The notes under the pieces were generated by a model that searched no databases, was not told where the DNA came from, and saw only the letters and a list, made by a program, of their open reading frames with translations. The position numbers and the translations under genes are program-made. DNA of 64,000 nt from Thuidium tamariscinum. Lineage: Eukaryota > Streptophyta > Bryopsida > Hypnales > Thuidiaceae. Positions 19,577-42,287 of the stretch are shown one piece after another. Position 1 is the first letter of the stretch. Every line of letters begins with the position of its first letter. Where the stretch lies: positions 5,706,501 through 5,770,500 of the forward strand of contig OZ019759.1 in NCBI GenBank assembly GCA_947034885.2, written 5' to 3'.

Positions 19577-19584
19577 ACCTGGAC
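19577..19584. repeat. Left 8-bp target-site duplication
   Basis: ACCTGGAC, identical to 42280-42287. An 8-bp duplication is typical of hAT transposition. Confidence 0.93.
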
Positions 19585-19815
19585 CAGGGCTGTGCGGACG
19601 TCCAGCGTCCAATGTCTGGCACCCCGCGCACGTCCTATGACATTTGAATTTCGAAATTTAGTGCGCCCGGTAAAATACAGAGGCGGACGGCCGCCCCGGC
19701 AGCCAGCGTTGGAGGTCCCGTCCGACCGCCGGCGTCCGCCATGAAAGCGATCCCGTCCGCTCCGACCGAGCGCGTCCGCCACGCGTCCGTGATGGCGTCC
19801 GCATCGACCCTGATG
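19585..19815. repeat. Left terminal GTCCGCC/GGCGGAC array
   Basis: GC-rich subterminal region inside the left inverted repeat, with several GTCCG and GTCCGCC motifs in both orientations (for example near 19682, 19734 and 19775). It stands out sharply from the AT-rich interior. It is a likely binding region for the transposase or an element-encoded regulator. Confidence 0.8.
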
Positions 19816-22259
19816 AGAATGTCTGAAAAAGAAATTAAAACTTTTCACCGTATATGGTAACTAGTCAATTTAAGAGCTGAAATTGAATTTTGGGGAGGGG
19901 AAACGTCTTAAAATATTTTCCAGTAAATTGCCTTTGAAAGACAAGTGGAATTGACATCTAACCGAAATTGTTTTATAATTTTTGAAGTTTTGTGGAATTA
20001 GTTATGAATTTTTGAAGTTGAAAGGGCATAGGGCTTTGAAAACGCCCACCCCTGCAATGTACACCCTTTGTACATTGCTGAAGGCTACAAAAAGAAACAT
20101 GTACAAGTAGTGAAAGTAGGCGGTTTTAGGCGCATTGAACTTGCAATTGGTGGGGAAATTCATAATTAATTTTTGGAACAATGTACTTGATTACTTGAAC
20201 AAGTTAGCAAGAAGATCAACAAGTTCGTTTTCCCAAAAAAAAATTAATGATGAAGATTTTGATTTTATAATTCCTTTAGGCGTTAATAGTCAGTAGTCAT
20301 CAATGATGGCAAATGACCCTATTAAACTGATACTAAAAAAATTAATAATTTTGTTTCTAAATTCAAGAAATTTAAATTTTACTAGTAAAAACATTGAATA
20401 TTAAGTAGTATTAAAATAATTTTAAAATAATGATGAAAATAATAAAATAATAATAATCTTGAAAACAACATCTTTATGTGGTTACATTGATTCCACATTA
20501 ACCCCTAAAATTTAGGCATAAAAAAAGTGGATGTGCCTTGTTCAACTTTGATTCTAACTTTCAATATAGCCATTTTGGTATTTGACTTAAAATAAGAAAA
20601 TGAAGCTTGAAAACTTTTCTTTTTATTTGAACTTAAAATTTTGAAAAATTCCAAGAATTGAAAAATTTATTGCAATTGCAAGTTCTATGTGTTGAAATCC
20701 GTCAAGCACAATACATTGTCTTTTTCATTCATATTTATTCGTTTTAAGATCAATCCTTAATTTCAATTGCAATATTCAGTTTTCCATTTAACATTCATTA
20801 ATGGTGAAAATTTCAAACTATTCCAATATATAGTATAATTGATATAATTTTTTTAACTTTTTACTTTAAAATTATTACAATAATATGTAGTTTTCATGAA
20901 GCAATTTGTAGAAAAATAGAATATGTAGAAAGTAGAATTTTACAATAGAATTTCTCTTGATAATGTATAAAATCAAAAATTTAATTTTCTTTAATAGCCA
21001 AATTTGACTTTGAGGTCTTTGTTATTGTAGTTTTTGGTTCAAAATTTTTTAAAGGCAAATTGAAAATTATATATAGTGATCTCCATTTATACTTGTACCT
21101 TTGGAAGAAATTGAAAGTATTTTGGATTTTCTCTGCTAGTTTTCTTATATTTATTTTTAATTTTTGTAAAAAAATGATAACGATTAGAATTTTTCTCAAA
21201 ATCAATTGCTCCCATTTTTGGTTCAATTGATAATCAACTATTGTTTCAATTGATTTTGTTATTTTTGTTTCAATTAAAAATCTTCACAAAATCAATTGAA
21301 ACAAAAATATAAATTTTATATCGATAAAATTCATAGTTTCTACTCCATTTGGTCAAATATCATCCTTAAGCTAAAATAAGCATATCTTATTTTGTTCAAA
21401 CATCAATCTTATATTTTTATTACTTGAAACTATGAATTTTATATCACTATGAGGAAATTCAAATGATTTTGAGAGAAATTTAAGTCATCTTTTTAGTTGC
21501 AAATATTAATTGGTGGGGAAATTCACAATAAAATTTTGGAACAATGTACCCTATTACTTGAACAAGTTAACAAAAAGATCGACAAGTTGGTTTTCTTAAA
21601 AAAAATTTAATCATGAAGATTTTGATTTCTGACATTCCTTTCGGGACAAGTTTTTAGTATTTTGAAGTGCATTTGGGGCACGAATCCTTTTGGCTTTTGG
21701 GGTTAATGGCATTTTCGAATTTTGAATTATGATCTGTCCATGTCATGATTTTATTTAAAATTGCCATAAATTTCTCAGAGCTCTGCAAAAAGAATTTTGT
21801 CATTTGAATTTCATTTGTGAAACGTTTGTACACCTCTGAAAAATATATAACTCTCTTGAAGTTCACCCTAACATACTCAGATTGCAAGTCAGGGCGCTAA
21901 TAGGTACTTCTACCTTACTTACTATTTAGACCTTATAGGCTTATACATCATGCAAATTGTTACACAACCTTATCAAGTATCTATGTGCACAACAACATCT
22001 ACCAACAATAAATACTATTGATCTCATCCCCCCCCCATGAATACGTTTGTCTATCAAGTATCAAAGATCAAAAACATTAATAGCTGAAATTTTCAAATGC
22101 TTTCAGTAATTCAAAAAATATAATAGATTTCATTTGGGTTGCCATACATTGGTGCTCCGTATATATACTATGTATTATATATGCCGCACGTGTACATTCT
22201 CTCTATAACATAGACTACATATCATTCTATACTTACGTATGCTACTATACTATGCCGAT
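19816..22259. other. AT-rich left arm of the giant transposon
   Basis: No supportable gene. A stretch near 20145-20260 (including TTGGTGGGGAAATTCA) recurs near 21510-21620 as a diverged direct repeat. A C-tract lies at about 22028-22036. Confidence 0.5.
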
Positions 22260-23762
22260 CTATTCATACGAACGCCGAAAGTGTTCATTGGGAATAGGCC
22301 AGTTGAAAGTACTAGTCCAACGATTGATGATGCGTGCCAAACCGCCCGCATTCTCCGGGCCGTCTTTACAAGGGCGCTCCAAGTACGCACGAAATGACAT
22401 TGCCAACGCTTGGTGATCAAATTTGCTCATGCTTGTCGTTTCCATGTTCAACTTGTGGTACTCCTCTGACATGCAATCCCTGTTAATTGCCATGGCTATT
22501 TTGCACACCGCATACTCCTCCGTTGCAATGGATAAACTTGGAATTACTTGCACATTTTTGTCTTTTTCGTGCAAATATGCAATCTTCGAGGTCACCCACC
22601 AACGGTTTTGCAAAGCAGCATCCATCTCTTGTTTGGATGTGAACACGTACAATGACTTCGGTGGTTCTGTAACGTACGAAGTCATGCCCCAATCGCACAC
22701 TCCAATGTATACGCGCGACTCGTTCGCGGGAAAGTGCAACATAATGTTGTCCAGTGAAATATCATTGTGCAAATATCCTGCATCGTGCACCGCATGCATG
22801 ATATGCAACAACACCCATGCTAGCTCTGTACGTTTCTTCCGAAATCGTGCAAGATGACCCGCGGCAATGACATCCGCATCCGTTGGCGAGCTATATTGCA
22901 AGTGCATACCTATGTTGTCTGGATAAGTTCTATCCAAATGCATCATCTTCCGCAAGGTCCCGCCATTCCACCAATATGCATACCCTTCATTCCTCCTTGC
23001 ATGAACTGCATAAAACCATATCACTCCGGGATGGCCAATCCGCACCGCCATGGATTCGTTTTGGTGTTCCGCCTTTGCAAGATGAGGTAGCGTCTGCTGT
23101 ACATTAGATAGCTTTGCTGCAAACTCCCAATACTCAGGTATTTCACGGCATCCCCGAATTTGCACCCTCCGAATTGTTGCGTACCCGCCTTTGGTCACAA
23201 CATCATCACAATAAATCACGGTCGCCGTGTCTAGAAGTGCTATTAGATGCTTCCTGCCTTCCGTCAATTCAACCATTCCATCCTTGGTTTTCCACCAACC
23301 CATAGATCCTCGTCTGTTCCTGGCAGACGCGAATGGAGCACATCGGCCGACAAACAATTCAGCCCTTAGAATGACTTGTTGAAATGCAGCATCATGTTCA
23401 CGGTGATGCTTTCCATACTTCGTTAAGATGGCCTTTGCATTCCACAACGCGTCATGCACCTTATTTTTTAATAACTGCTCAAAGCCACTCTTATCCATTT
23501 CACTGTGCCATTGTAGAACAGAAACCGCATCCATCAACCGTTGCCACATGTCGTCCTTGAATTTTTTAGGACAGTCCTCATTGTAGCGAACATACTTCAT
23601 CTGCAAGGACATCGTGCTCTCCGATTCATAGAAGTCCACGATCACTTTAATCATCATATCATTGAATGCTTCAGAGGGCTTGTTTGCTTTTGCCTCCTCT
23701 TTAGATGGACCTACCACCTCCTCTAGTTTCCTTTTACCCGCCTTCTTTGTTCGTCCCATCAT
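22260..23762 (-). CDS. Protein-kinase-like protein of the giant transposon
   Basis: 500 codons plus TAG. The start is the ATG at 23762; a second ATG follows at once. The first 35 residues are basic (GRTKKAGKRKLEEVV), possibly a nuclear signal. A helical region of unknown type follows to about residue 200. A kinase fold then occupies the C-terminal half: a glycine-rich strand (KGGYATIRRV), an ATP-binding Lys near residue 217 (EFAAKLS), HPGVIWFYAV, the catalytic loop HNDISLDNIML near residue 332 (HRD replaced by HND, catalytic Asp and Asn kept), and DWG in place of DFG near residue 357. All core residues are present, so activity is plausible. Target unknown; it could modify the transposase or a host factor. 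This is the only gene of the element without an internal stop. Continuing past its TAG would add about nine further TAR codons before a TGA. Confidence 0.8.
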   Translation of the reverse strand: MMGRTKKAGKRKLEEVVGPSKEEAKANKPSEAFNDMMIKVIVDFYESESTMSLQMKYVRYNEDCPKKFKDDMWQRLMDAVSVLQWHSEMDKSGFEQLLKNKVHDALWNAKAILTKYGKHHREHDAAFQQVILRAELFVGRCAPFASARNRRGSMGWWKTKDGMVELTEGRKHLIALLDTATVIYCDDVVTKGGYATIRRVQIRGCREIPEYWEFAAKLSNVQQTLPHLAKAEHQNESMAVRIGHPGVIWFYAVHARRNEGYAYWWNGGTLRKMMHLDRTYPDNIGMHLQYSSPTDADVIAAGHLARFRKKRTELAWVLLHIMHAVHDAGYLHNDISLDNIMLHFPANESRVYIGVCDWGMTSYVTEPPKSLYVFTSKQEMDAALQNRWWVTSKIAYLHEKDKNVQVIPSLSIATEEYAVCKIAMAINRDCMSEEYHKLNMETTSMSKFDHQALAMSFRAYLERPCKDGPENAGGLARIINRWTSTFNWPIPNEHFRRSYE

Positions 23763-23904
23763 GATAAAAATCACGTCAGAACTTCGAAAAAAAGCAACAA
23801 GGGGGCCCCAATAATGTCACCCTTACTTTCCCTAGGAGGGGAACCAATGGAGACTTAAAAAGCCACCAAGCTTTCCACTCCACGCTTGCAAAATGCAAGG
23901 GAGA

Positions 23905-24245
23905 AAACAAGAGTGAGGGCGGACGGCCTAAACCGCCCCTCTTATACCCTGGCGGACGCCCTAAACCTGTGCGGACGACCCGACGAGGCGCTGTCCGCCG
24001 TCCGATCGATCGGACAGCGCGCACGCGTCCGCACGATCAGGCGGCCGTGGGATCGGGCGTCCACGCGATCGGACGACCGCGGACGGGCGGACGGATATGC
24101 GTCCGCCTCGTCGGACGGCAACAGTCCGTCCGCCGACGCAATGCACGTCGGAAACGCGTCCGCCCGATCGAGCGGACGGGAAGTCCGCCGTCCGATCGAT
24201 CCGACGGACGACCATGATCGGGCGGGTGCCGTCCGCCTAATCCAA
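23905..24245 (-). promoter_or_regulatory. Promoter array of the kinase gene
   Basis: A GC-rich block with many GTCCGCC, GGCGGACG and CGATCGGACG motifs directly upstream of the kinase start. On the minus strand GGGTATAAG (23949-23941) is a TATA-like box about 180 nt before the ATG, with a GGCGGAC copy on each side. Its composition matches the terminal arrays. Confidence 0.75.
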
Positions 24246-24249
24246 CGGT

Positions 24250-25565
24250 CTACTTTGTAGAAGGCCTTCATTTGAAATTTCACGTGAAGAAGGGTCAAAA
24301 AAATATGGAGAGGTTGAAATTTCTTAGAACATTTGTGTTCTATGACAAATTTCCATTTGGAAATTGAAATTGCCTATTTTTTATGAGATTCCAAAAAATA
24401 GGCTCCCTTGCGATATTTGGAGTTTTTTGCTAAGTGCCCTATTCATTTCAAATTTCATGTGAAAAGGGGCCGACAAAAATATGGAGAAGTTCGAATGTCA
24501 TAGGACATTTATTTTCTATGACTAATTTCCATGCCACATTTGAAATTTTCTAGTTTTGATTTTATTTCAAAAAATACGCCACGTAGCCATTTTTGTGTCT
24601 ACTTTGTAAATGGCCTATTCATTTCAAATTTCATGTGAAGACGGGCCCAAAAAAATATGGAGAGGTTGGAATGTCATAGGACATTTATGTTCTATGACTA
24701 ATTTCCATTCCACATTTGAAATTGTCTAGTTTTGATTTTATTTCAAAAAATACGCCACGTAGCCATTTTTGGGTCTACTTTGTAAATGGCCTATTCATTT
24801 CAAATTTCACGTGAAGACGGGCCAAAAAAAATATGGAGAGGTTGGAATGTCATAGAACATTTGTGTTCTATGACAAATTTCCATTTGGAAATTGAAATTG
24901 CCTATTTTTTATGAGATTCCAAAAAATAGGCTCCCTTGCGATATTTGGAGTTTTTTGCTAAGTGCCCTATTCATTTCAAATTTCACGTGAAAAGGGGTTG
25001 ACAAAAATATGGAGAGGTTGGAATGTCATAGGACATTTATGTTCTATGACTAATTTCCATGCCACATTTGAAATTGTCTAGTTTTGATTTTATTTCAAAA
25101 AATACGCCACGTAGCCATTTTTGGGTCTACTTTGTAAATGGCCTATTCATTTCAAATTTCACGTGAAGACGGGCCAAAAAAAATATGGAGAGGTTGGAAT
25201 GTCATAGGACATTTATGTTCTATGACTAATTTCCATGCCACATTTGAAATTGTCTAGTTTTGATTTTATTTCAAAAAATACGCCACGTAGCCATTTTTGG
25301 GTCTACTTTGTAAATGGCCTATTCATTTCAAATTTCACGTGAAGACGGGCCAAAAAAAATATGGAGAGGTTGGAATGTCATAGGACATTTATTTTCTATG
25401 ACTAATTTCCATTCCACATTTGAAATTGTCTAGTTTTGATTTTATTTCAAAAAATACACCACATAGCCATTTTTGTGTCTACTTTGTAAATGGCCTATTC
25501 ATTTCAAATTTCACGTGAAGACGGGCCAAGAAAAATATGGAGAGGTTGGAATGTCATAGAACAAT
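24250..25565. repeat. 176-bp satellite, about 7.5 copies of two types
   Basis: The spacing of the shared motif (G)GCCTATTCATTTCAAA is 172-177 bp. Two monomer types alternate: A (with CCTATTTTTTATGAGATTCC and TTTTTTGCTAAGTGCC) and B (with TAGTTTTGATTTTATTTC and ACGCCACGTAGCC). The order is A-B-B-A-B-B-B, then a truncated copy, which suggests a higher-order duplication. Each unit has a TTCACGTGAA (or TTCATGTGAA) palindrome and a hyphenated palindrome around TCATAGAACAT. It abuts the kinase promoter array. Confidence 0.9.
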
Positions 25566-26279
25566 TGGAGAAATTGGAATGTCATTGAATTTTGACTACG
25601 GATGAGGAATTAGGGCCTCTCTTATTTTATTCTCATAAAAATTCTAAATAGACATGCTAGAGATCACATAGGGAAAAAAAAACACGTGAAAGTTTCATTC
25701 AACCTCTTTGGACTACGGATGAGGAATTAGGGCCTCTCTTATTTTATTCTCCTAAACTTAAATAAACTAACATGTAAGTCTTCTATTTCTTTTATTCCCC
25801 AAATGACCAAGTATTGCCTTGACAATTTTCACAATTTTCAAAATTGGTCATCAAAATAATATTAGGTTCAAAGGCATAACAAGCATAACCCCAATCAAGT
25901 TTTTAGCTTATTAAATTCTACTTCACAATTCTAAGTTGTTAAAACTATGTTTCAAATATATGTTCGAGGAGGCATTATAACCGGAGTACTAGAAAAGAGG
26001 GGAAAACATTCCGATGCAATATTCATATTTAAATAATAACAATAGCTACACATTGGTTAAATTTAATACTACAGGTCAAAGGTCCCATCCATAGATCCAA
26101 TATTGTACTCACGCATTTCAAAAATTTGTATTTTCATAAATACTTATAGGTTTGTGAGTACCCCTCACCAACATTACAATACCATGATTGCCACCACCTA
26201 CGGTACATGGCAGTGGATTACAATCATTACACCGTAGTGCGGACTAGCCACTACAAGAGTGTAGTCTTTTTGTTGTACT
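25566..26279. repeat. AT-rich spacer with a 46-bp direct repeat
   Basis: GACTACGGATGAGGAATTAG and the following 25 bases occur at about 25595 and again at about 25710. Otherwise AT-rich with no gene; it includes the 3' side of the next minus-strand gene. Confidence 0.6.
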
Positions 26280-27353
26280 TCACTCGGAATCTGAGTCGGT
26301 ATCATCTCTCTGACTATGGCCTACAAAACTAGATCCATACACCCCCATATATGGTCCTCCACCATACACGTCTCCTGCTCTGCTTTCCGCTCCTCCTTGT
26401 CCATAGTTCCCGTAATGAGGCCCTCCAAAGGTTGGAGGAGGAACTGAATCTCCATAGTAGGAGCCTCCTTCATTTGAACGGCCATGGTAAGACCCTCCAT
26501 GATGCCCATAATTTCCATATGAACCACCTCCACTAGACCTCGAATGGTATTGGGAGCCTTCTTGGGTAGAAGGAGCATTGTGCGCGGTTCCGCGGCTTCC
26601 TCCTACGATTTGAGAACGACTTTGCCCACCTCGTGGGTCATGTGTACCACGTTCACGTCCATAGTACCCATCGTAACCATATTGTGGACCACGATCTTCT
26701 ATGCTTCTCCGCATTGCCTCACGCATTTCATACTCGTATTGAATGTCCTCTCGAGCTTCTCTACGTTCATGCCTCTCTCCACCGGCCACGGGTGCAGTAG
26801 CCTCTTCAACATCATCATCATCATCTGGGACGGGCTCCTCTACATCCGGCATCACTGTTGCAGGAAATCCAAATTGGCCTCGATTGGACCATTCGGGCAT
26901 GCAATCGCTTGCATTAGTCCAACTCGTATAAATGATTGCTTCGTTGCGATTGAGAGTCGCCACATCTTTTCCATATATTCTGCGCCAATCAACATCTTTG
27001 TGAAGTACAATCTCTGCCTAGACCATGGCCATGTTCGTATAATTCATGACATTTGGTTTGGAGTCACGTATATCAGCATTACGCGTCACTTCATCGTATC
27101 GGTGAACAAAGTGCCTACTGAGACACGTGGATGTTTGCCCTTCCCAACGGCGAACTTGTTGCGCTGCACGGTCCGATGCCCACAATTTGGCAATGTGCGT
27201 CATTTTCACGTACTTCTTGCACGTAGTGGCGGTCCAAACTTTCTTTGGTTCACTCTCCCATCCGGGTTCACCAACACACATTGGATCATTCCAATCCTCC
27301 CAATTTATACTTTGGGATTTCCCCTTGTTTCTCTTGTTTTCATCACGAGGCAT
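26280..27353 (-). CDS. Accessory protein: shared N-terminal domain plus Gly/Tyr-rich tail, one in-frame TAG
   Basis: 357 codons from the ATG at 27353 to a TGA at 26282-26280, with one TAG at 27020-27018 (codon 112). The first 130 residues match the start of the RING protein at 31774. Shared residues include the DP near residue 23, a GWE, CKKYVKMTHIAKLW, a Cys followed by HFVHR, and, on either side of the TAG, MAMV then AEIVLHKDVDW (partner: SMVYAELRLKRKVDW). The homologous frame therefore clearly continues past the TAG. The C-terminal 130 residues are low-complexity Gly, Tyr, Ser and Arg, with repeats such as GGSYGNYGHHGGSYHG, resembling prion-like or RNA-binding tails. The domain looks Myb/SANT-like in its spaced Trp residues, but I do not assign a family. 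Likely nuclear. Confidence 0.7.
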
Positions 27354-27619
27354 GGTGGCGTTGACTAAAATGAGAGCAACTGATGACTTCGTTCACACTA
27401 ATTCCAACAATAAGAAATCAAAATGCTTCAAAGTTACAGTGCGATGCAGTTTAGATGAAGTTGTAGTCCCTCAGAGCCTGATCATTACTTTAACTAAAGT
27501 TCGTGAAGCATTTTAGTGATGATTAATGAAGCACAACCGTTTGCACACAACGTCGAAAGGGGCGCGCAGAGCCACAGATTAAAATCGGGCACTGGATCAT
27601 CCACTCCGGAGGGAAACGG

Positions 27620-27975
27620 TTGTGGCCAAATGAGCCGTCCGCCCCGCTTCTTATACTGAGCCGTCCGCCCCCCACCGAGGCGGACAGCCAGATGCTCATC
27701 CGATGGCCGAGAGGCGGACGGCAGAATCAAGCGGACAGAAATCGGCGTCCGCTGGATCGCACGGACATCGGGCGGACTCACCGAGGGACGGACGACGCGG
27801 ACGGCGCCCGTCGGTGGCAGACGCAGAGACGGACGGACCGACGGGCGGACAGGCGGATGGGGGAACCGACAGGCGGACGGGGCACCGAGGGGCGGACGGT
27901 GGCATCGACGGGAGGACGGGGCACCGACGGACGGACGGGGGCACCGACGGAAGAGCGGACGGATGGGCGGGGGGT
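27620..27975 (-). promoter_or_regulatory. Promoter array of the Gly/Tyr-tailed gene
   Basis: Roughly 26-bp imperfect tandem units of the type GGGGCACCGACGGGCGGACG on the plus strand (GTCCGCC read in the gene's direction). On the minus strand a TATA-like box CAGTATAAG lies at 27658-27650, about 300 nt before the ATG, between two GGCGGACGGCTCA copies. Confidence 0.75.
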
Positions 27976-28818
27976 TTGAAACCCTCAAAGACCTAAGGTA
28001 GAAGCACCTATTACAGTCGAAGTTAGTTAGTTAGCAGTTTCCGCATAGTTGGAGGCACCTTTTCCTATAAAGAATATTTTTGTAGTATTGGCAACTAAAA
28101 ATCATGAATTTCCAAAAAAAAAAATTAGAATTTTTGGACGAGGCATCTAATTTCTGTGAATTTTCAAAGTAGGACTTAGTAGAGCACCTAAATCTGCACT
28201 CCTAGTAAATCTGCCTAGATTCTCACACCAAAATCTAAAATAATCAGAACCCACCAAGCACAACTAAAGTTTCAAGGTACTAGTGGGGACACTTTGTAAG
28301 AAACTCTAATGTCAAACTATGGATACACTGAAAATAATGGGTGCTTCTACCTTACATCGATACTTGAATTCTTGAAATTCATTGAGTAAGCATGTTACAC
28401 TGGTTTAGGTTCTGAAACCAGCCAAGTTGATGTTAAATCTTCTCGAAAATCAGAAATAAATGCTAGATTCTCTTTGCAATTTGCATGCATTTTGGGGAAT
28501 TTGAACACTTCATGGAATAACTATGACTTTAGGTTTCAATGTTCAAATTATATGTATCCAAAATTCACCTTAGGACTTGATAGAGAGGAATGATTTATAT
28601 TACCGTAGTACGTTTTCAATTTCAACAGAAATTAATTTCTTTTGGAAGAATTTGTAATTCTAGGAAATTATAATGATATTAGTCTTAAATATTGGAAATT
28701 GTCAATATCATTTGTTGAAATTCAGGTGATTCAAATTGTTCCAAACATAGTAACACACCTTCTATGACAATTGACAAAGGAATATTCAAATTTAATGAAA
28801 TTCCAATTGAAAGTTGGA

Positions 28819-29480: not shown

Positions 29481-30162
29481 CAATGAAGGGAGAGATTTAT
29501 ATTTTATAACCATATTTTATTGCAAGATATTCTCAACTCTCAAGTTCTAACTTGTAAGGGCCTAATATAACAATTTCTAAACAAATTAGATAAATGTATC
29601 ACCATACTTTCTACAATTCTACAGTTGGAAGATGGTGACATTCATGATTGCATTAGAGGATGAGTGAAATTTGAAAATGATGCAATTACACTTGAAAAAA
29701 GATTTCAAAATGTGAAAAATTATAGAATCCTTCATTTCAATGTAAGTGAATGTTAATATGAAGGAGTGTACTTCAAATGATTTTACCCCTTACTGCCTTA
29801 CTGGTTTGCATTTAGAAATATGTAAAGAGTATATGTTTTCTCTATTAAAGTAGGGTGCATACATTTTTTAAATTAATAATGTGTTGGATCCTTGAATCAT
29901 TCATCAATTTATTTTCACTATTTATTATTTTATATGACACCCATATTTCCATAATGCAAAAATGATGAAGAAGCTAGGGTTTAGGTTCTAGGGTTTAAGG
30001 TTTAGGGTTCGGGCTTGTCTACGCTCTACAAAAGTGGATGTCGGATAGGGTGTAGGGTTGAGGACTTACTTTCTTTAAAAAATTTAATGTGCAGAATGAA
30101 ACTCAATTTCACACATACATAATACATTGAACATTGGATGCTTTTTCCAACCCTTCCCATTT

Positions 30163-31162
30163 TTACCCCTAAAAGCCCGCACTTTTTTTTTGGGATGTAT
30201 AGAAATTTTGGATAGGTACCTACTACTTACGAGCAGGGATATCCAGATTTGAGGCTAAAATTTGAATGGAATTGAGTCAATTGACCAATGTGGGGGTGAA
30301 GAAGATCTGTCATATGCACCAAATTTTCATGGCATTTGAAAATACTGGTCAAAGGTTATAGCCTAATATGTTACTTTTTTTTATAACAGGGCATTTCATG
30401 CAAATCAGAGAAAATCACTTATTTCATAAACAAGAATTCCACAAATTCTTTTTCTAGAGTTTTGAATACGCGTGAAGTTCTGAATCATTCCATTTTGATG
30501 AATGAGTCAAAAGTGATGTGGATTTTCTGTTTCCAGGTAATTTTGGATTTCCTACTCTAAAATAAACTTTGAAATCCTTTATCTTACCCAACTTCCAATA
30601 TTTTTGGACGAAAAAAAAATCGTAGGATGTAGATACATTATTACAACATTTCGAATTTGCAACCACTGGAAATTTGGGATTGGAAATTTTCAATTCCATA
30701 TTTCAACTGTAAATAATGTAGTGCGTTTTATCATTCTCTACTACTACGTATTTACTAATTTTTTCCTATACGTTGTACTATTCCAAATGATTTGAAAATT
30801 TTTAAGCATGTGCCCAACTTCTGTAGGAAAACAAATCCAAAGAAGCACGACCATTTAGGTCATTTTTTCATAGAAATGTGAGCTTGGGAAGTGCAGCTGC
30901 CTTGCTTTTCGGCTTTCGCAGTGTAAAAAAAATGATTTCAGTTAATTTGAATGCTTATATCTTGTAATCCACTCGGTGGAAATGTTTGAAATTTTTACCA
31001 CATGCTTTTGATACTATACAATACAATATCCTACGATCAGATATGTCAAAAAAAGTTTTTTTCCAAAGATTCTGGTACTTGTACTAGAAATGGCAGTTTT
31101 GGTTTTTTGGAGGCAATTGGAGCGCTTTTGGTGAAAGTATATTGACGGTCCTTTAAGGGTTC
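30163..31162. mobile_element. Nested TTAACCCC-family element, about 1.0 kb
   Basis: Begins TTACCCCTAAAAGCCCGC and ends GGTCCTTTAAGGGTT. The interior (AGTGCAGCTGCC and a nearby CATTTAGGTCATTTTTTCAT) matches the element at 40868-41817. Non-coding. Confidence 0.6.
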
Positions 31163-31264: not shown

Positions 31265-31545
31265 AAATCTGAGCGGTCGGCAAGGCGGACGCCTTTGTCG
31301 GACGCCCAGTCGGTCGTCAAGGCGGACGGGCAGGGCTGAAGGGCGGACGGGGGGCGGTCGGCAGAGCGGACGGGCGGATGGGCGGCGGGGCGGTCGGACG
31401 ACAGGTCCGCCGGACGGGACTGTCGTCGGACGACCCGAGGTCCGGGCGGATGCCCCGTCCGGCGACGGTCCGCACTGGCCGTCCACCGGTCCGGTGCCGG
31501 ACCTGTCTAGGTCTGGCGGCGGACGGGTATATGGTCAGACGGCCC
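31265..31545 (+). promoter_or_regulatory. Promoter array of the RING gene
   Basis: A GC-rich block with repeated AAGGCGGACG, GGGCGGACGGG and CGGTCGG motifs. A TATA-like GGGTATATGG at 31525-31534 directly follows a GGCGGCGGAC copy and lies about 245 nt before the ATG at 31774. Confidence 0.75.
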
Positions 31546-31773: not shown

Positions 31774-34700
31774 ATGGCTACAAACAGCGGTGCAGGTACT
31801 GATGGGATGAATTCAGGAGGTGACCAGAGAAAGCGAAATAAAGCAAAGGGGACTACACATGGACTACACTATGAAATTTTGGATGATCCGAACATCATAG
31901 CAGAGAGCGGTTGGGAAAATGAGACCGCAGATTATTGGACCTCCAAACTATGTAAGCAGTACCTTAAAATGTACCACATCAACAAGTTGTGGCCTCGGGA
32001 TGCACACGCACGCCAAACTGCGGATTTCAACTGTAAACCACACGGTTGCATTGACCCGCACTTTGTCCATCGAGCGACAGAGGTGTGGGGGGCCATGTTT
32101 GGCCCTAAACCAATGTCTAAAGGGTACATCAACTACAGCTTGGCGTCCATGGTGTATGCAGAACTGAGATTGAAACGCAAGGTGGATTGGAGCACGTTCC
32201 AAACAACAAAGAAGAATCCTCTACTGCTGCAGCAAAATCAAAAGGATATTCCTGATTCCTGGCCAACGACGGCGCAGAGGGTACAACCAAGCTTACAAAA
32301 TCCAGCAACGCCTACAACGATGGCCTCAGTAAGCGCATGTGCGAAACCGCAGTTGGATTCGAGGGAGACAACATCGAAAGTTATGGACGTTTCTGCGGTT
32401 CATGTGAATGACCAAAACAAATCTCCCAACCGGGAAGAGCTTGTCAACAAAAATGGTGGCTTGTCTTCTCCGAAGACAGAACCCACGGATGAAGAGGTTG
32501 CAGGGGCCAATGTCACAATTGGACATTATGTAGACAGCGGTGTTTTAGATAGTTTGGGATATGCAGCTCCAAATCCACAGTTGCCAACATCGGAGAGCCC
32601 ATTGTGTACTCCAATCACTCAAGAGGACCTGTCAAGAACGAATGTGCAACAACCCAATGCTGCAAAGACGAATGTGACAGTGGATACATATGAGTTTATA
32701 AAAAAGTATCCACATTTGTCAAGTTTAGACTCGACTAGCTTCAAGAATCTTGTTGCAATGCCACAGATTCCGCATTTGGAAGGCTTGCTTGACCTTAGTA
32801 TGAAGTGGAAGACAATTGAAGAACGTTTGTTTCCATTTGAGCAACGAACTCAGCAGAATGAGCCGGAAAGCAGTACTCCACCGAAGAAAGTATATAAACC
32901 CGCTGACTTTCCACATGCCGCTTTGGCATTGACAAGAACTGCCACATGGATAGATGAATTGGCTCCAAGGGTTGGTGCGTTTGCCGATGAATTAGCGTCC
33001 CTAGCTCCTACACTATTGAGCGGTGCGACGGCTTTCCTGCACTTCACCGATCAAATGTTACCAATTCTCACGTCTGCGATTCATTGTGAAGAAAGTCACG
33101 CTCAATTGAGGCAGGAGCTAAAAGAAAGAGGAAGAGATATTATACGGTTGAAGGTTGCGCTCACCAGTGAACTTGAAGAAGAGAAACGCGAGGACAGGAT
33201 TCAAAGGATGGCTCAATCATTGAAATATATTGAGCCAAGTCAAGGGACTCAAGGTAGCGATCAACTCTCTCTTCCAATGGACAAGGGCAAAGCTCATGTC
33301 GAGCCAGAGGAACGAACTTTGCCGATTGGCCGTAAAAGTTGGCTTGACTTGCAAAAAGAACTGGACCAGTCCAATGCCGAAAAAGCCCTTCTTTAGTCCA
33401 AGTTGGATCAAATGATACGAATGCAGGCCATGGATGAATATTTGCCTAGGAGCGGATCGGAGTCTCGTTGGTTGGGATGGGTACAAAAACTTCAAGACCC
33501 ACCCTTGTTAGCAGCTCGAGAAATGAATAAGCTTCGTACGATTGCATTGAAGGGTAACGATGAATGCAATGCTGTTGAGAAACATTTGAAGAAGTTCGAG
33601 AGCGAGGTGGATCGCCATCCAATTGAGAGTGCTTCAATCACATGTTGGGGAAACACAGATGCTATGATGGAGCGCTTGAACCACACAAAGAAAACGGAGG
33701 GTGGAAATATCAATTGGGCCTTGGAAGTAGAGGAAGGATGGGTCCCTTACCAAACGCTTTCAGCACACATCAACAAGGAGAAGCGTGTTATGCATAATTT
33801 TGATGCAGGTCATAAAATGTTGGATGGTATTTGTACAATTTGCCAATACGGTTTTGGACCTGAAGGAGCCATAACCTTGGGCCACTGTGGCCACACTTTC
33901 CACGTGCGGTGCATCATTCAAGCATCAATGTTTAGCTCGGTTTGTGCCCAATGTCGTTCTCCTTTGAGTCCTAGGTTTTATGAATTGTTTGGACTCTTGG
34001 ATGTTATGCCCCCCGGCCAGGAATACAACAGGTGGACCCTTCCATTGGACCAAGGGCCATACGAATTTGTGAATTATAAGCATTGGGGCAAACCTCTACA
34101 ATGGAACCCAACAGAACGGAAGCATGCATTGTACGATGACATCCGTGGTCCAGTGGATGCTTTCAATTGGATGACCCAAACGAACGAGGTGGAAATACGT
34201 GCCCGTTCAATTGACGATGATGAGGGTCGTGAATTGTTTTGTCACAACATGGGGGGGCATTGGAGCGTGCAACGTAATAAGTTCTTCTGGTTTCCAGAGA
34301 AGCACGTGGAGAAAACGGAAGGTGGAGAATGGGTTGTCGTGGAGGATTCAGAAGAATTCAAGGAACAATATGCGGCATACGACCACGGTTTGATAGGTCG
34401 GGCGTTGTTGTTGTCAAAGTTGGAAGAAGCTGTCGAATATCGTGCTTCCGTGGACATAGATGTGGAATGGAACACAAGCGAACCAATGGTGGAGGTGGTG
34501 GAGGCGTTTGACCGGCGGGTTGGAGAAATCATAAAGCAGTGGAGGACACTTCTATTCGAAGGATGTACAACCGAAAAATCATTGAATGAATTCTCATTTG
34601 AAGTGGCCAACAAAGTGGTAGACGAGGTCTTACTTCGATTGCAGTCTACTTTGTCAGCCTTGAAGTTGAAGTCTGTGGATTTGACTCCCAAAAGAGAGAA

Positions 34701-34920
34701 GAAACGGAAGTTGGAAGATGATGATGATTATACAGTGGACACGGCAGAAGCATTCAAAGTAGTTGAGCGGACTAACAAATCCGCACGACTAGCTGGCCCT
34801 GAAACGGCTGAAAGCCCTGAGGCCCAAGCTCGTCGAGAAAGTCTAAGAAGTGCAGCTCGACGCACTAAAGATGAATCGTCTCGTGGTTCGGGAGAGGGTA
34901 GTAGTAGTAAAACAAAGTAG
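31774..34920 (+). CDS. Coiled-coil RING-H2 protein (putative E3 ubiquitin ligase), one in-frame TAG
   Basis: 1,048 codons from the ATG at 31774, with one TAG at 33394-33396 (codon 541). The frame is the same on both sides, and the TAG falls inside a coiled coil (LDLQKELDQSNAEKALL, then SKLDQMIRMQAM). Order of parts: the N-terminal domain shared with the 26280-27353 protein (residues about 20-140); a Ser/Thr/Pro-rich linker; a helical region (about 370-460); coiled coils (about 440-560); and a RING-H2 finger near 687-735 (CTICQYGF, GHCGHTFHVRCI, CAQCRSPL), with all eight metal ligands in a Cys3-His2-Cys3 pattern. A basic/acidic segment KREKKRKLEDDDDY, probably a nuclear signal, lies near the C-terminus. 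It ends in TAG at 34920; if UAR is sense, the next TGA is at 34951-34953. A ligase encoded by a DNA transposon could act on host silencing factors or on the transposase. Confidence 0.75.
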
Positions 34921-34953
34921 ACATGGACCTATACGTCTTGTATGAGTTTTTGA

Positions 34954-35890
34954 TTGAACCATCGTATTGTATGGACTATGGATGGTTAGATGGTGATGTG
35001 GATTTTAGAAGGATAGAGCAATACTAGGTAAATGTACACGGAATATGCTTTGACTTATTATCGGTTTTTAATATGAACATATATATGGAATTATTTATCT
35101 ATCTATTCATTTATCTATCTATTTATGTATGTATCAATTAGTCAATGTACGTATTCACTATGCACAATACTTTTTGATGTGGAATGTATGCTATTAGAGG
35201 CATGGTATTGGATGTAAGAAATTGTGATTGAATATTATAATCTTTGAATTCTTAATTGATTTTGATTTTTTTTGTTTTTGTATATGATCTCTGATATGCC
35301 TAGTTTCAATTGGCACGGTTACCATGCAGAAAAAGAAATATACAACTTATAAAAATGTTTGTTGTTTGTTCAATTTGAACAAATTCGTCGATGCTCAAAA
35401 GAGGCCTTGGACATACACTAGAGGTGTTTTCAGTAAAATATTATTTTCAGTAAACATGTATAGTTGTCAAAAAATTTCTAAGAACTACTTCCGTCGGTAG
35501 ATTTGAAGTTGCTTTGTATGAGCAAATCCTTAGAACTTGAAATTTGGCATACATATTATCAACACTGAGATGATCTCATGCCAAGAATTTCATGGCCAAA
35601 TTTTTATTTCTCAATCTCTGCTTCTTTGGGAGGGTGTCAAAGTTGGTAGCATTGGAATTTTAGACACAACCACACATGTACGTAGATTTAAAAAAATCTT
35701 TTTCCGGGCAAATCTTTTGGCCTTGAAATTTGACGCATGTGTTATGAACATAGAGACGATCTTGTGCAGAAAATTAAATGTAAAAATAACAATTTTTGAG
35801 CCCTAGGGAGGGTGTCAAAGATGGCAGCAGCAGGGGATTTTTTTTCCATGTGATAGCAAGAATTCGTAAATGAAGTAGACCTTACTGTAT
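34954..35890. repeat. Non-coding spacer with simple repeat and direct duplication
   Basis: A CTAT/ATCT-type simple repeat at about 35094-35130. A diverged direct duplication (TTGAAATTTG at about 35535 and 35725, followed by GGGAGGGTGTCAAAG at about 35625 and GGGAGGGTGTCAAAG again near 35806), about 185 bp apart. No gene. Confidence 0.6.
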
Positions 35891-35904
35891 ATGTTTTACG
35901 CACG

Positions 35905-36085
35905 GCTAGTCCGCTTGGACCGAAGTCGCCGTCCGCCCCCGACCGAACTGGCCGTCCGCCCCGACCGAACTAGCTGTCCGCCCCGACCGATTTTGCCGTC
36001 CGCTTCGATTCAGCGAGTGTTGCAACGGGTATTAGACTGTCCGCCCCAACGGTCAACTGCGCTCAGTTTACTATAAGTAGACTGA
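35905..36085 (+). promoter_or_regulatory. Promoter array of the transposase gene
   Basis: Three to four tandem units of about 24 bp, GCCGTCCGCCCCGACCGAAC, then a TATA-like CTATAAGTAG at 36071-36080, about 230 nt before the ATG at 36306. It is shorter than the other arrays but has the same core GTCCGCC. Confidence 0.8.
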
Positions 36086-36305
36086 GAGAAGTCATTTGTA
36101 AGCACTCCTGATGAACTGAACACTAAGATTTCCAAGGGCTAGGCGCTGCAAATTTATTTGTGTCCCTTGCTTGGTAATGCATAGTTTGGTGGAAGGGGGG
36201 GCTTTCATTTTGAAGGCTTTTTGCACTCAGTGCTTATTTGATTGTGGACTTTTACAACATAGTGCTAACGTTACCAATTACAATTGAAGGGAAAAAGAAT
36301 TCAAT

Positions 36306-39300
36306 ATGAGCAAAGACTTCACCACTTGGTACACGATCCCGGAAACAAACAAAATACAATGCAAGGCTTGCAAGTGTGTGTTCGCCCAAAAAACTAGCCA
36401 TATGTTGAGCCACTTGGGATACGAAGGCCCTACGGGACAGCGTGATAGGGGCATCGGCTTGTGCTCGCAGTTGACATCCACAACAAAATCCTTATTTGTT
36501 AATTGCAAAGGGCTGTTTCCCAAAAGACCTGTTGCGGACGGAACGGATGGCAACGACATGCCAATGTCCACAAGCAATCTTTTGAATGATAGGGGCACGC
36601 CGTGTTCTACGCAAGAAGATTCATGCACCACACCGGAAGAAGTGGTCGCTGTGGGTTCACAAATAACTCCAAATACGGAATCAGGTGGTAATCGGCATAC
36701 TTCGAGGGCATCAAGCAGTAGGCCTGCAACGCAGAGTAGGCTAGTGGATGGATTTGATGAAGTCAACAGACGCAAATTACATGCAACGTGGGCTCATTTT
36801 TTTTATTCGGCGAATATACCATTTTCAGTAGCTCGGAATCCAGCCTTTCGGGAAGCGGTGAAGTTGACGGCTGAGTTTAAAAAGTCCTACACTCCTCCAT
36901 CATACAATGATCTGCGACATAAATTGCTTGATCAAGCGAAGTCAGATATTCAAACGAAGTTGCTTCTGAGGACTGAAGACAGTGTGAGGAAGTTCGGAGC
37001 AACACTGTCTTTTGATGGATGGAGCTCGGTGACAAACCGTCCATTAATAAATGCAATGCTCATATCTTCAGCAGGTGAACAATTCCTTGGATCGGTGGAT
37101 ACGAGTGGACAGAAGAAGACAGCACCGTATGTGGCTTCTATCTTGGAAGAATTCACAGAGCAAGTGGGCCCCAAGAATGTAGTGCAAGTGACTGCAGATA
37201 ATACCAATACAAACCCCGCAGCATGGAATTTGGTGTCCCATAAATATCCACACATATATTTTCAAGGATGTGTGGTGCATGCCTTAAACTTGTTGCTTAA
37301 GGATTGGGCAAAGCAGCCATGGATCAAAGATTACGTGAAGGTTGCCGAGGTCGTTGTCAAATTCTTCAGGAAGAGGCACATGCCACTTGCCATATTTCGG
37401 AAATACGAGACGAGGTTCAGTTTGTTGAAGCCGTTGGAAACAAGGTTTGCTTCTTATTTCATCATGATTGACCGCTTGTTGGAAGTGAAGGATGCGTTGA
37501 AGCAGAGTGTGGTGGATCCACAATGGGTGGCGTACGTGAACACATTGGATGATAGAGACAAAGGCAAATCATAATCGCAATCAAGGAACGTGTACAATAC
37601 AGTTGTGGATGAGCATTTCTGGAACCGGTTGACCAATGTGCGGGAACTGACAGCCCCAGTTGTATTCGGTCTACGTGATTTGGATGCAAAGACGTCGTGC
37701 ATGGGGAAGGTATTGCATATTATGCGGAATTTAGAAAAACATGTGTTTGGTCTACGAGGAGCACCTTTTTGTTTGGACCTTGACCGAGCAATACCACTGG
37801 AGGAGTACTTCGTAAAACGACGAAAGTTGGGGGAGACAGACCTCCATTATGTAGGCGCTCTTTTGAACCCGTATCTTCTCCACGACAAAGAACTAGCCGA
37901 CGATCAAAATGCAACAGAGAGATGCAAGAACGTTCTAACGAAGATATGTTCTACCGAAGAGTACGCGAAGGTGGTGAAGGAATTTGTAGCCTTCTGCTAT
38001 AGGGAACCTCCATTCGATACCATGTTGGAGCCACAAGAACAAATGTTGTCGGCCCATGCTTGGTGGGATTTTGAAGGTGCATGTGGGAAGCTAATTGCTC
38101 CCATTGCCAAGAGGATTTTGGCCCAACCGGTGTCATCATCTGCATGCGAACGAAATTGGAGTAGCTACTCTTATGTTCACAACAAATCTCGGAACAAATT
38201 GGCAACAACCGAGGCAGCGGACTTGGTGTATGTGTACACCAATTCAAAAGTTGTAGGCGCATCGAAGAACAAGGATGAGAAGAAATGGTATAGAGACAAT
38301 GTGGACTACGAGTCCTCCGATGCGGGAAGCGATGCGGAAGACATCGATGATGGACTTCATCCACTTGACCAACGGGATGAAGGTGACGAGGACAATGACA
38401 TGGACAATTTGTATGACGAAACGTACCGTAGTCCTAGTCCAATGAATGATGGGTGGAGAGGCAATAATTCAAGCATCTATGACTTTCACTCCGATGAGGA
38501 GAATGATGGGTACGGTGAAGATGAACCTCGTATAGCAAGATTCGTGGATGGATCCGGATTTTTGAATAGCGAATCTATTCTATCGCAGAAGGAGGACGCT
38601 TTTGTAGAGATAGCGGAGGCGGATGGGACAACGCTTCCCGATGGTGGGGATGGTGGCACGGATGAAGGCATTCGTATTTGTCAATCTCCATCCACAGGAG
38701 GGGTTCAAGAAAAGGATAATGATGAAGAAAATGATGGAGAAAGGGGTTGTACGGACAATGACGAGGTCCCGATCAATACAATTGCAGTAAAGGAAAATGG
38801 TATTGAACGTGTAGAAGAGGCCGAGAATCCAAGCTTTGGCAATACACTCAAACGTAGAGAAGAGCTCATGCAAGATTCCCCAAAACCACCTCGGAGCGGT
38901 GCACCGGGTGCCATATTTGGAACTAGTAGCCAAAATCCGGACGGTTCAAGGAGCCTAGGGCTTGGACATCGGCTTGTTAATGTTGGCAAGGCAAAGCAGC
39001 CTTGCATCGAATTTACTGCCACTGTATTATCATCCACCGATGATGACGGAGATGTGACATTGGCACAGATGAAACGTAATTTAGCTTTGCACACCGCACC
39101 GCCACGATGCAATCTGAAATCAGCAACCTCTCCACCGCAATCTTCGAGGGCCACAAACATAATCGTTCATGGATGTCCCCAGGCAGTGAAATTAGAGGTC
39201 AAAGTAGGCAATGAAGGTAATAAAAAAAGACCTATGCAGCCTTTTGCGGTTTCACCAGTGAAGAAATTGAATGCAGGTAGAACCCCCCTTCATACATGCC

Positions 39301-39566
39301 TACCTGTTGCGAAGAGGAAAATGAAACCGGTCGCGTGTCTAAATTCTAGGGAAGAAATGAGCAAAGCCATATTGAAAGTAAAAGAGGAATACAAGAAGCC
39401 AATCAAGCGAAGGAAAGCAAAGAGAAGTAAGCAAGTAGAAGGCGCAGGATCTTCATCAGATGGTATGGTGAACACATCGAGCGATGAAGACGTAGGATAC
39501 AGACGAGGATGCGAGAGTAGTGGGGCAGAGGTGAAAGGAGATGATGATTATTGTCCTTCTAATTGA
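36306..39566 (+). CDS. hAT-family transposase, one in-frame TAA
   Basis: 1,086 codons from the ATG at 36306 to a TGA at 39564-39566, with one TAA at 37572-37574 (codon 423). A BED-like zinc finger lies near residues 17-40 (CKACKCVF, then HMLSHLGY). The DUF659-type catalytic region shows SFDGWSSVTNRPLINAM and VQVTADNTNTNPAAW followed by GCVVHALNLLLKDW, giving the first two catalytic Asp residues and the hAT CxxH motif. The dimerisation region near residue 612 has SSACERNWSSYSYVHNKSRN. On either side of the TAA the text is DDRDKGKS and SQSRNVYNTVV, in the same frame. After the dimerisation region there is an unusual acidic tail of about 440 residues rich in Asp, Glu and Gly, with a basic C-terminal patch (KPIKRRKAKRSKQ). 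It should bind the element's ends and cut and join them, acting in the nucleus. Confidence 0.88.
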
Positions 39567-39784
39567 AGGGATGTAAGCTTAGGGCTTTAGATGCTCATAT
39601 ATACCAAGAATAGGTGATTACCATTTGTTGTTGAGGAAGACTTTAATAAACAAGGTTTGTTTTTGTCTTTCATGAATGGTACAACATCTTTGCTAAATCG
39701 GAGTATTGGACATCAAATGCAATATGAATGTTTAAATGTGCGCCTAAGGGACTGTAGTTTCACGAATGGGAATCGAAGAAAACC

Positions 39785-40730
39785 TAAACCCCTAAAGTTC
39801 CATGACTATGTATTCCCTAAAACGCTCGAAAACTACCATTTCTAGTACAACTACCAATTTCCTTGATAAAAACATTTTTTGATACATGTAACTATAGGAT
39901 CTTGTAGTATAATGTCTACAAAACATGTGGTAAAAATTTCAGAAAATTCCACCATGTGGATCAAAAGATATAAGCATTCAAATTCCCCTAAACCATTTTT
40001 TCAGTCCTGCAAAGAATCGGGCAGCTACACTTCACAAGCTCACTTCTCAAGGAAAAAATGTTGAAAATGGTGGTGCCTCTTTGAATCCAGTTTCCTAAAC
40101 AAGATGGAGATATGCTCAAAAAATTTCATGTCATTTGGAATTGTACAACATATAGGAAAAAAATAGTAAGTAAAAAGAAGTAGAGAATGATTCATAATAC
40201 TAAATTGTTAAGAATTTAATTATAGAATTAGAAAATGATAATCCCAATGGTTGTAATGTTGTAATAATCAATCTACATCCTAGGGTTTTATTTATTTTTT
40301 TAAATATTGAAATTTGAGTGAAATAAACAACTTCAAAGTTTCTTTGATAGTGGAGAATCCATTACTGCCCGCAAACAGAAAAACCTCATAACTTTTGACT
40401 CTTTGATTGAAATGGAATGATTCAAAGCTTTCCACTTATATATACATGTAGAAAACCAGTTTAAAATTTTCATTTTTTAAAAAAGTGATTTTTTCTGATC
40501 TTTTTTTAGTCCCGAAGACCTGAACTGCCCACTTACCAAAAAAAGCAACATATTAGGCCATAACTTTTGAGTCATATCTCCAAATGTCATGAAATTTGAT
40601 ACACATGAAGATATTCCTCGCCCTACCTTCTATTAAAATTTGAGCCCAAAATATTCAAATTTCTAATCACACGTACCTGCCCAAAATTTCTATACGGCCC
40701 CTAAACGCATGTTGGTCCTTTAGGGGTTAA
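39785..40730. mobile_element. Nested TTAACCCC-family element, about 0.95 kb
   Basis: Starts TAAACCCCTAAAGTTCCATG and ends GGTCCTTTAGGGGTTAA. Interior motifs (TACCATTTCTAGTACAAC and CATAACTTTTGACTC) recur in the neighbouring copies. Non-coding. Confidence 0.65.
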
Positions 40731-40867
40731 AATGTTAAAATATTTGCCTAAAATCTAAGGGGTTGTAGGTTCACAAATCCTAATTCAATTTCAATATTGA
40801 AATGTTTAAATGTATGGTTAAGGGGTTGAAGGTTCATGAATGGGAACCTAAAGAAACATTGAAATGT

Positions 40868-41817
40868 TTAACCCCTAAACGCCCAAACTGCATTTTTTGG
40901 CAACATAGCAATTTTGGGCAGCTCACTACGAATGGAGTTTTTAATTTTTTTCTTTGAAATTCTCATACAACGTGTGTTCGAGGAGTAACTTTAAGGCCCA
41001 ACAATTTTCATAACTTTTGACAACATGAATAAAAAGTTATTGCATGATATGTGATTTCTTTTGCTCGGCGGGCAACCCGGGCAGCTGAAAACTTCTTCAG
41101 AAATCACTTTTTCTAAAATTTGAAATTTGAAATTCATTCTTTAGATTTTTATCTACTTGGAAAGCTTTTAATTATTCCATTTTGATTTGTGAAATGAAAG
41201 TTATGGGAGTTTTAGTTTGAAGGTAGTTTGTGGGAAGTTATGGAATCTCTACTCCAAAATAAACTTTGAAGTCCATTATTTTATTCAATTTTTAATATTT
41301 TTGAAAAAAATTAAACACATTAGGTGAAGATTGTCTATTACAACATTACAACCATTGGGATTGGAAATTTTCAATTTCAAAAATTAATTATTACTATTTT
41401 TATATTTTGATTCATTTTCTACCTCTTTCTACTTACTAATTGTTTTCTACATGTTGTAGAACTCCAAATGATTTGAAATTTTTTAGGCATGTAGCTTACT
41501 TGACTAAAAGAATGAATCGAAAGAGTAACAACCATTTTGGACTTTTTTTCATACAAAAGTGAACTACTGAAGTGCAGCTGCCCAGATTTTCGCAGGGACA
41601 AAAAAAGCATTTTTGACAATTCAAACACTATTATCTTGCAATCTATACGGTGAAAATTTCTGAAATTTTCTCCACATATTTTCAAACTAGTTTACTATAA
41701 GATCCTACGGTTACATTTGTCTTAAAATGTTTTTAAAAAAAGATTTTGCTGTTGTACTAGAAGTGGCAGTTTTAAAGTGTTTTTGGCAAAATATAGTCAA
41801 ATACATTTAGGGGTTAA
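40868..41817. mobile_element. Nested TTAACCCC-family element, about 0.95 kb
   Basis: Starts TTAACCCCTAAACGCCC and ends TTTAGGGGTTAA. It shares AGTGCAGCTGCC and GTACTAGAAGTGGCAGTTTT with the copy at 30163-31162. Confidence 0.65.
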
Positions 41818-41937
41818 ATATTCCCTTAGGACGTTGTACGTACACAAACCTGAATCCCAAGAAATATGTGAATGTTAAAGAACACTATGAACCCCCCTAA
41901 GACCCGAGGTCGAGGGTTGAAAAATAAAAAGGGGTCC

Positions 41938-42279
41938 ATCTAAAGCCGTCTGCCGTCCGCCCATTCCCCCGCCCCGTCCGCCAACGCACCGCCCGTCCGC
42001 CCATTCCGCCGTCCCGTCCGCCACTCCGTCCTCCTGTCCGCCATCGCGTCCACCTGTTGGTCCTCTCGTCCGCCGTGCCGTCCGCCAAAAGTCCCGCCGT
42101 CCTCGCAAATTCAACGGCCCCCGACCGTCCTGCTTCCCCGTACTCGACGTCCGACAGTCCGTCCGCCGGGAAAAACGCCGTCCGCCACGGTAATTTGGCC
42201 GTCCGCTGCGCCCCGCTGCGTCCGGACGTCTGGATTTTGGGCGTAATTTCCCAAAAGACGTAGAGTCCGCACAACCCTG
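41938..42279. repeat. Right terminal GTCCGCC array
   Basis: More than ten CCGTCCGCC-type units at roughly 18-bp spacing (41945-42190), ending in the right inverted repeat GTCCGCACAACCCTG (42265-42279). Most copies are in one orientation. Confidence 0.85.
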
Positions 42280-42287
42280 ACCTGGAC
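42280..42287. repeat. Right 8-bp target-site duplication
   Basis: ACCTGGAC, identical to 19577-19584. Confidence 0.93.

Follow-up and report, generated by a model that had tools for sequence, protein, structure and literature searches.

A 22.7-kb hAT transposon of the moss Thuidium tamariscinum with four genes, two subfamilies and one motif at its ends and before its genes

The customary picture of a hAT cut-and-paste transposon is a transposase flanked by two ends. A 64,000-nucleotide stretch of the genome of the moss Thuidium tamariscinum (GenBank assembly GCA_947034885.2, contig OZ019759.1, positions 5,706,501–5,770,500; hereafter the window, in which all window coordinates are counted, and which lies on the 17.5-Mb contig C11) holds a 22,695-bp hAT element in which the transposase gene is accompanied by genes for a kinase-like protein, a RING protein and a protein with a Gly/Tyr tail. 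The question raised by this locus is whether the three further genes serve the element or are passengers within it. The element is, with high probability, a multi-gene hAT DNA transposon of about 22 kb whose four genes serve the element itself: the unit recurs many times in colinear form, bounded by inverted ends and 8-bp duplications, and at least one short non-autonomous derivative of it exists.

Ends, copies and subfamilies of the element

The element is limited by 15-bp inverted ends, alike at 14 of 15 bases, and by a perfect 8-bp duplication, as the original prediction had it (Table 1). Each end fits the end pattern without a mismatch, and with up to two mismatches allowed the two ends are the sole matches within the window, two matches being obtained in none of 100 shuffles. 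The ends of hAT transposons are short, inverted and of the CAGGG type, and CAGGG-type inverted ends are present in both subfamilies described below (A, CAGGGYTGTGCGGAC; B, CAGGGATGACG and CAGGGTTGACG). A perfect 8-bp duplication was found in all four copies for which both ends were read as a pair (the window copy, a copy on C4, a copy of subfamily B and an 870-bp derivative). The suggested search for an empty site was also productive. When the two flanks, joined through one copy of the duplication, were used as a query against the host genome, the matches were the two flanks in the window itself and a single related site (C11:13655844-13655986), which has 78% identity to query bases 56–198, a part that crosses the junction. 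There is no net gap at this site, because by the extents of the match 143 bases pair with 143 bases, and it is apparently an empty site in a related stretch.

Further copies of the subfamily to which the window copy belongs (A) were sought in the host genome (363.2 Mb in 19 contigs), as had been proposed. The A end pattern matches 182 times, its reversed control never. Protein queries, for which the best candidates were scored and in which a broken gene can yield two matches, returned 71 kinase, 77 Gly/Tyr, 67 RING and 65 transposase matches of subfamily A. Of the 113 groups that these form by position, 30 show the four genes recurring in the same full order and strands (kinase −, Gly/Tyr −, RING +, hAT +). 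A further 35 contain just one gene and are uninformative on order, and the other 48 are shorter runs in the same order, bar three exceptions: in one RING precedes kinase, another consists of two kinase pieces, and the third is a large head-to-head group. All three partners lie on the expected side and strand of 36 of the 67 RING matches, and five have no partner. The copy on C4 (22,138 bp, with its own perfect duplication CTTTTGTC) is colinear with the window copy in two segments, one of 5.5 kb at 95.8% identity and one of 16.6 kb at 95.9%, which are separated by a break within a 176-bp tandem repeat.

Subfamily B has the same four genes, at 43–62% protein identity to A, with other ends and another gene order (Gly/Tyr +, kinase −, RING +, hAT +); the gene set has therefore been kept while the Gly/Tyr gene changed its place and direction. 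The B matches have 57–58% identity to the A kinase query, 69–74% to the Gly/Tyr N-terminus, 51–52% to the second half of RING and 59–60% to the first half of the transposase. The complete ordered set is present in 52 of 97 B groups, and 95 groups are compatible with the order (12 of these with a single gene). The B end pattern matches 217 times in the host genome (control, once). Among the first 100 of these ends listed there are 22 forward–reverse pairs less than 60 kb apart, of which 16 span 21.7–22.7 kb, and 15 of these 16 hold all four genes; a first count, with 42 chosen B ends, had given all four genes in 16 of 18 pairs, 15 of them of the same length. The copy at C2:46661344-46683782 (22,439 bp, with the perfect duplication ATTAAGGC and the two B ends given above) has four open frames in the pieces read, the RING frame, of 1,194 codons, starting at the edge of a piece. 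With the B kinase as query, four places, its own included, tie at 1171.1 bits, which points to recent multiplication or to duplicated segments.

Relics of a third lineage comprise three of kinase (at 62% from B, with 4–6 stops in each and every one on C11) and six of RING (at 60–62%, four on C11). At C11 2.63–2.64 Mb and 3.36–3.37 Mb, kinase, RING and hAT relics stand in the order kinase −, RING +, hAT +.

Unrelated transposons nested in one another could by accident resemble a single unit, and internal AT-rich stretches of the element are indeed related to DNA outside it, so that some repeats are common to the element and its surroundings. However, the copies are colinear and carry one outer duplication, and 16 of the 22 B pairs noted above, among the ends listed, span 21.7–22.7 kb, which makes an accidental composite extremely improbable.

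The four genes, their products and selection

All four genes of the original prediction are present as single frames, two gene limits having been corrected, and they form two pairs as described: kinase and Gly/Tyr point leftward, RING and hAT rightward, and both pairs thus away from the centre. The kinase-like gene is the only open one in the window copy, each of the other three containing exactly one in-frame stop. This copy is decayed, three of its four proteins no longer being made in full, and it could move only with help from other copies.

Since three genes hold one stop each, a changed genetic code in which TAA or TAG specifies an amino acid was considered. It was rejected: the stop sites are sense codons in most A loci (28 of 30 for hAT; 26 of 29 oriented loci for Gly/Tyr; the window is counted in both), and the B frames that were read are open. 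Short introns around the stops were dropped as an explanation because the frames run on in phase past the stops.

Pfam domains were sought in the B proteins as a whole, and in A in the RING protein and transposase as pieces on either side of the stop and in the second part of the Gly/Tyr protein. The transposase has DUF659 (E = 2.9e-34 in A, 2.5e-35 in B) and the hAT dimerisation domain Dimer_Tnp_hAT (E = 5.4e-8 in A, 2.4e-9 in B), all above the Pfam cut-off, and a long C-terminal extension. A zf-BED match at its N-terminus in A scores 15.5 bits, under the cut-off of 20.6, and none is listed for B. Candidate catalytic motifs DGW, ADN and CERNW are present in both subfamilies, and may contain the D, D and E catalytic residues of hAT transposases. 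Searches of Protein Data Bank (PDB) sequences returned no match for either half of the transposase. The RING protein has a zf-RING_2 match (32.3 bits in A, 31.4 in B; cut-off 27.3) and is classed as a RING-H2 zinc-finger protein and putative ubiquitin ligase. In the kinase-like protein, FAAK, HND and DWG are candidates for the AxK lysine, the catalytic Asp loop and the DFG-like Asp, and are invariant between A and B; its matches to PDB sequences are weak. The N-termini of the Gly/Tyr and RING proteins are homologous (36% identity over 162 aligned columns, E = 5e-25; Smith–Waterman score 235, the best of 500 shuffles reaching 52). Two of the three accessory proteins therefore have a common module, in which Cys and His residues are invariant in A and B. 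Predicted folds of the kinase and of this shared domain were of low quality (mean pLDDT 35.5 and 34.3, respectively).

Large DNA viruses often carry genes for kinases and RING proteins, and Teratorn is a virus–transposon hybrid, so that the helpers might have come from a large DNA virus that used a hAT transposase. Among the four genes of each subfamily, no capsid, polymerase or packaging domain passes the Pfam cut-off, the only hint being a below-cut-off DNA_pol_A_exo1 match in the B kinase, and three queries found no relative among viral contigs; a viral hybrid is accordingly held to be barely credible. Bacterial and archaeal contigs, searched with one query, likewise contained no relative.

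Selection was estimated as the ratio of nonsynonymous to synonymous divergence (dN/dS). Between A and B the ratios, obtained by the Nei–Gojobori method with the window copy standing for A and stops skipped, are rough, at 0.17 for kinase, 0.21 for Gly/Tyr, 0.25 for transposase and 0.30 for RING. Within A they are 0.265 for the first half of the transposase (30 copies) and 0.36 for the Gly/Tyr N-terminus (28 copies), and between the window and C4 copies 0.31 for kinase, 0.38 for RING and 0.39 for hAT. Together, the sister copies in this genome show the four genes to have, in all likelihood, moved as a set and been maintained by selection.

The four genes thus look proper to the element rather than randomly captured, because the set recurs in A and in the diverged B with every dN/dS between A and B below 0.31. 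The claim of a multi-protein hAT lineage is supported in this form; of the two terms first offered, cargo-bearing or multi-protein, the second stands and "cargo" is the weaker word, as the data favour genes that serve the element. If they were passenger cargo, a hAT element would have taken up three host genes by chance, perhaps to the benefit of the host. Hosts commonly have families of kinases and of RING proteins, and among the 100 of 182 A ends that were listed, 13 of 24 forward–reverse pairs less than 60 kb apart (some of 4.5–10 kb, one of 23 kb) enclose no listed gene match, so that A ends can bound other DNA; eight of the 24 pairs hold all four genes and three hold three (two of them sharing one left end), and partial A copies are common. 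However, chance uptake has to contend with the same set in two diverged subfamilies at low dN/dS for each gene, with the element's own motif arrays ahead of all four genes (see below) and with the relatedness of two of the extra genes to each other, and it is considered improbable, whereas an old host origin of the accessory genes is possible.

Motif arrays and a proposed mode of control

The element contains 89 GTCCG/CGGAC cores, of which 81 lie within six non-coding arrays that make up 1,700 of its 22,695 bases. The arrays are found at both ends and ahead of each gene, and each exceeds all 1,000 of its own shuffles (Table 1). A TATA-like box also lies 184–302 bp upstream of the ATG in every gene, so that the shared promoter design of the original prediction is confirmed. 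In subfamily B, arrays are present at both ends, before hAT (13 cores) and before Gly/Tyr (merged with that of the left end); in the hAT and Gly/Tyr promoters, which were those read, TATA boxes lie at −263 and −220. The base that follows GTCCGC is C in 37 of 54 A sites and A in 17 of 34 B sites, counts that are non-independent owing to tandem duplication; in the B hAT promoter it is C four times and A twice. The one short A derivative that was read (870 bp, with a perfect duplication) is gene-free and filled with 33 cores, and such retention of the arrays is expected if the transposase needs them.

Table 1. Features of the element copy in the window (positions counted from the first base of the 64,000-nucleotide stretch)
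Feature	Position	Strand	Details
Left 8-bp target duplication	19577..19584		ACCTGGAC; see also the related empty site
Left terminal inverted repeat	19585..19599	+	CAGGGCTGTGCGGAC, read from 19585
Left-end array	19585..19815		8 cores; shuffle mean 0.9, maximum 5 (1,000 shuffles)
Kinase-like gene	22260..23762	−	500 aa, open
Array before kinase gene	23925..24245		19 cores; shuffle maximum 6; TATA at −184
176-bp tandem repeat	24247..25563		7.5 copies, non-coding; C4 copy has related repeats
Gly/Tyr-tail gene	26280..27353	−	357-codon frame; stop at 27018-27020
Array before Gly/Tyr gene	27630..27980		18 cores; shuffle maximum 7; TATA at −302
Array before RING gene	31265..31540		15 cores; shuffle maximum 6; TATATGG at −246
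RING gene	31774..34920	+	1,048-codon frame; stop at 33394; RING-H2 finger past the stop
Array before transposase gene	35900..36070		6 GTCCG cores; shuffle maximum 5; TATA at −234
hAT transposase gene	36306..39566	+	1,086-codon frame; stop at 37572
TTAA-bounded stretch, CCCCTAAA ends	40868..41817		Partly related to 30443-31100 and to DNA outside the element
Right-end array	41930..42279		15 cores; shuffle maximum 6
Right terminal inverted repeat	42265..42279	−	CAGGGTTGTGCGGAC, minus strand 42279-42265
Right 8-bp target duplication	42280..42287		ACCTGGAC

In the mechanism proposed for the element, the hAT transposase, with a putative BED-like N-terminus and DDE core, would bind the inverted ends and the adjoining GTCCGC arrays and cut and paste the element. 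Because the same arrays precede every gene, a protein of the element is proposed to bind there too and to control the four promoters together; the transposase itself might do so, or either member of the pair of accessory proteins with the common N-terminal domain and its invariant Cys and His. The kinase, RING and Gly/Tyr proteins would act as helpers by shielding the CG-containing arrays from host silencing or by tuning the transposase, in a manner resembling that of TnpA in Spm or of VANC, the anti-silencing protein of VANDAL elements, which is the closest model. The steps of coupled control and anti-silencing are put forward tentatively. More broadly, and on balance somewhat doubtfully, the element may belong to a hAT lineage turned small self-regulating genome, in which one motif marks the mobile ends and all promoters, and in which kinase, ubiquitin-ligase and prion-like Gly/Tyr proteins would act jointly, holding the CG-containing sites open against silencing and gating transposition, with a motif and reader that would shift between subfamilies (GTCCGCC in A; a larger share of GTCCGCA in B).

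Several points count against a four-gene element of this kind. Among the copies, the RING and hAT frames of the C4 copy are broken by 1-bp length changes; on C1, a right and a left end that enclose 65 kb differ in their flanks, which is read as the result of recombination between copies; and the 100 B ends listed, on C1–C5, comprise 73 of the left type and 27 of the right type, so that many B left ends stand without a listed partner. With respect to the proteins, the Pfam Pkinase match (22.9 bits in A, 25.8 in B) is below its cut-off of 31.7, and the shared N-terminal domain has no Pfam match above the cut-off (the best being zf-C3HC in the B Gly/Tyr protein, at 17.0 against 22.2 bits) and one chance-level match in a PDB profile search. 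As for selection, dS between A and B is 1.2 to 2.05, near saturation, so that the A–B ratios given above are rough, and the Gly/Tyr ratio between the window and C4 copies, based on few changes, is 0.88, the sole ratio that fits less than neatly. The limits of the arrays were set after the clusters had been seen, and tandem duplication inflates the core counts; array binding, control of expression, effects on methylation and a role in transposition are inferred from sequence.

Known systems, rearranged copies and neighbouring sequences

Maize Ac has an 8-bp duplication, CAGGG-type ends and one transposase gene. The moss element resembles Ac/Ds in the duplication, the type of ends, the hAT transposase and the presence of short non-autonomous derivatives, but is about 22 kb long, has four genes and repeats its end motif before every gene. 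In Spm/En, a CACTA element with a 3-bp duplication, the accessory protein TnpA binds the subterminal repeats and the promoter; Spm/En, with TnpA and TnpD, thus offers a parallel for accessory proteins, and differs in its CACTA transposase and 3-bp duplication. The transposase of VANDAL21 of Arabidopsis is of the MULE type, whereas that of the moss element is hAT, and Pfam names no VANC-like protein in the latter. The Starship elements of fungi are likewise very large and rich in genes, but have a tyrosine recombinase and variable cargo, in contrast to the hAT transposase and fixed four-gene set of the moss element; no Pfam match to a tyrosine-recombinase captain was found in the four genes of A or B.

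Subterminal repeats are a further likeness to Ac, which is 4.6 kb long and has AAACGG repeats bound by its transposase (PMC3260210), and which is the model for such binding by the putative transposase-binding arrays of the moss element. VANC binds short motifs in dense non-coding arrays of VANDAL elements and removes silencing marks (PMC5735166, PMC10398659). VANDAL21 is like the moss element in having several genes and dense, tandemly evolving and mainly non-coding motif arrays (PMC5735166), and in motif variants that differ between subfamilies (PMC5735166, PMC10398659).

In the open-licence literature, as represented by the beginnings of abstracts, searches for large, giant, cargo-bearing or multi-gene hAT elements, or for hAT in mosses, ferns or Chara, gave no description of such an element: neither its fixed set of four genes, nor its size, nor the presence of arrays ahead of every gene was found in print; the part available of a review of giant transposons (PMC6431247) does not contain "hAT" as a whole word. 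Within one genome, two subfamilies retain a fixed four-gene set in a 22-kb unit, and it thereby becomes testable what a transposon gains by encoding a kinase and a ubiquitin ligase. Should the helpers prove to counter silencing, they would provide a case beside VANDAL and VANC in another transposase superfamily. A further suggestion is that some kinases and RING proteins annotated as "host" genes in plants may in fact belong to large, gene-rich DNA transposons.

Some copies appear to be rearranged. Facing copies at C7:25394048 (−) and C7:25469088 (+) are 99.95% identical over 4,266 bases, and those at C7:28339740 (−) and C7:28374696 (+) are 99.94% identical over 3,333 bases; the bases compared lie inside the element, and the pairs represent either large inverted duplications or an assembly artefact. 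At C1:21379247 and C1:21485414, the outer flank of one left end (GCTGACTC) is the reverse complement of the flank of a right end 106 kb off, and the nearer partner end has a different flank; two copies have probably recombined here and caused an inversion. The A end pairs of 4.5–23 kb that hold no gene match (C3:26288373-26296137, C3:26752167-26760642, C5:9000891-9023989 and others) may be large non-autonomous copies or carriers of other genes. The six A transposase matches that do not exceed 90% identity all lie on C11, as do the kinase relics of the third lineage, and this contig may, as a guess, recombine little, for example as a sex chromosome.

Within the window, the TTAA-bounded stretch of the element falls in the part that is colinear with the C4 copy, and a stretch outside the element (49194-52543) has the same TTAA and CCCCTAAA bounds; the two look like members of a repeat family with TTAA target sites. 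Farther right, an open stretch at 54633-54992 (−) matches the B3 DNA-binding domain at 30.3 bits, against a Pfam cut-off of 30.1, and is possibly a host exon or a relic.

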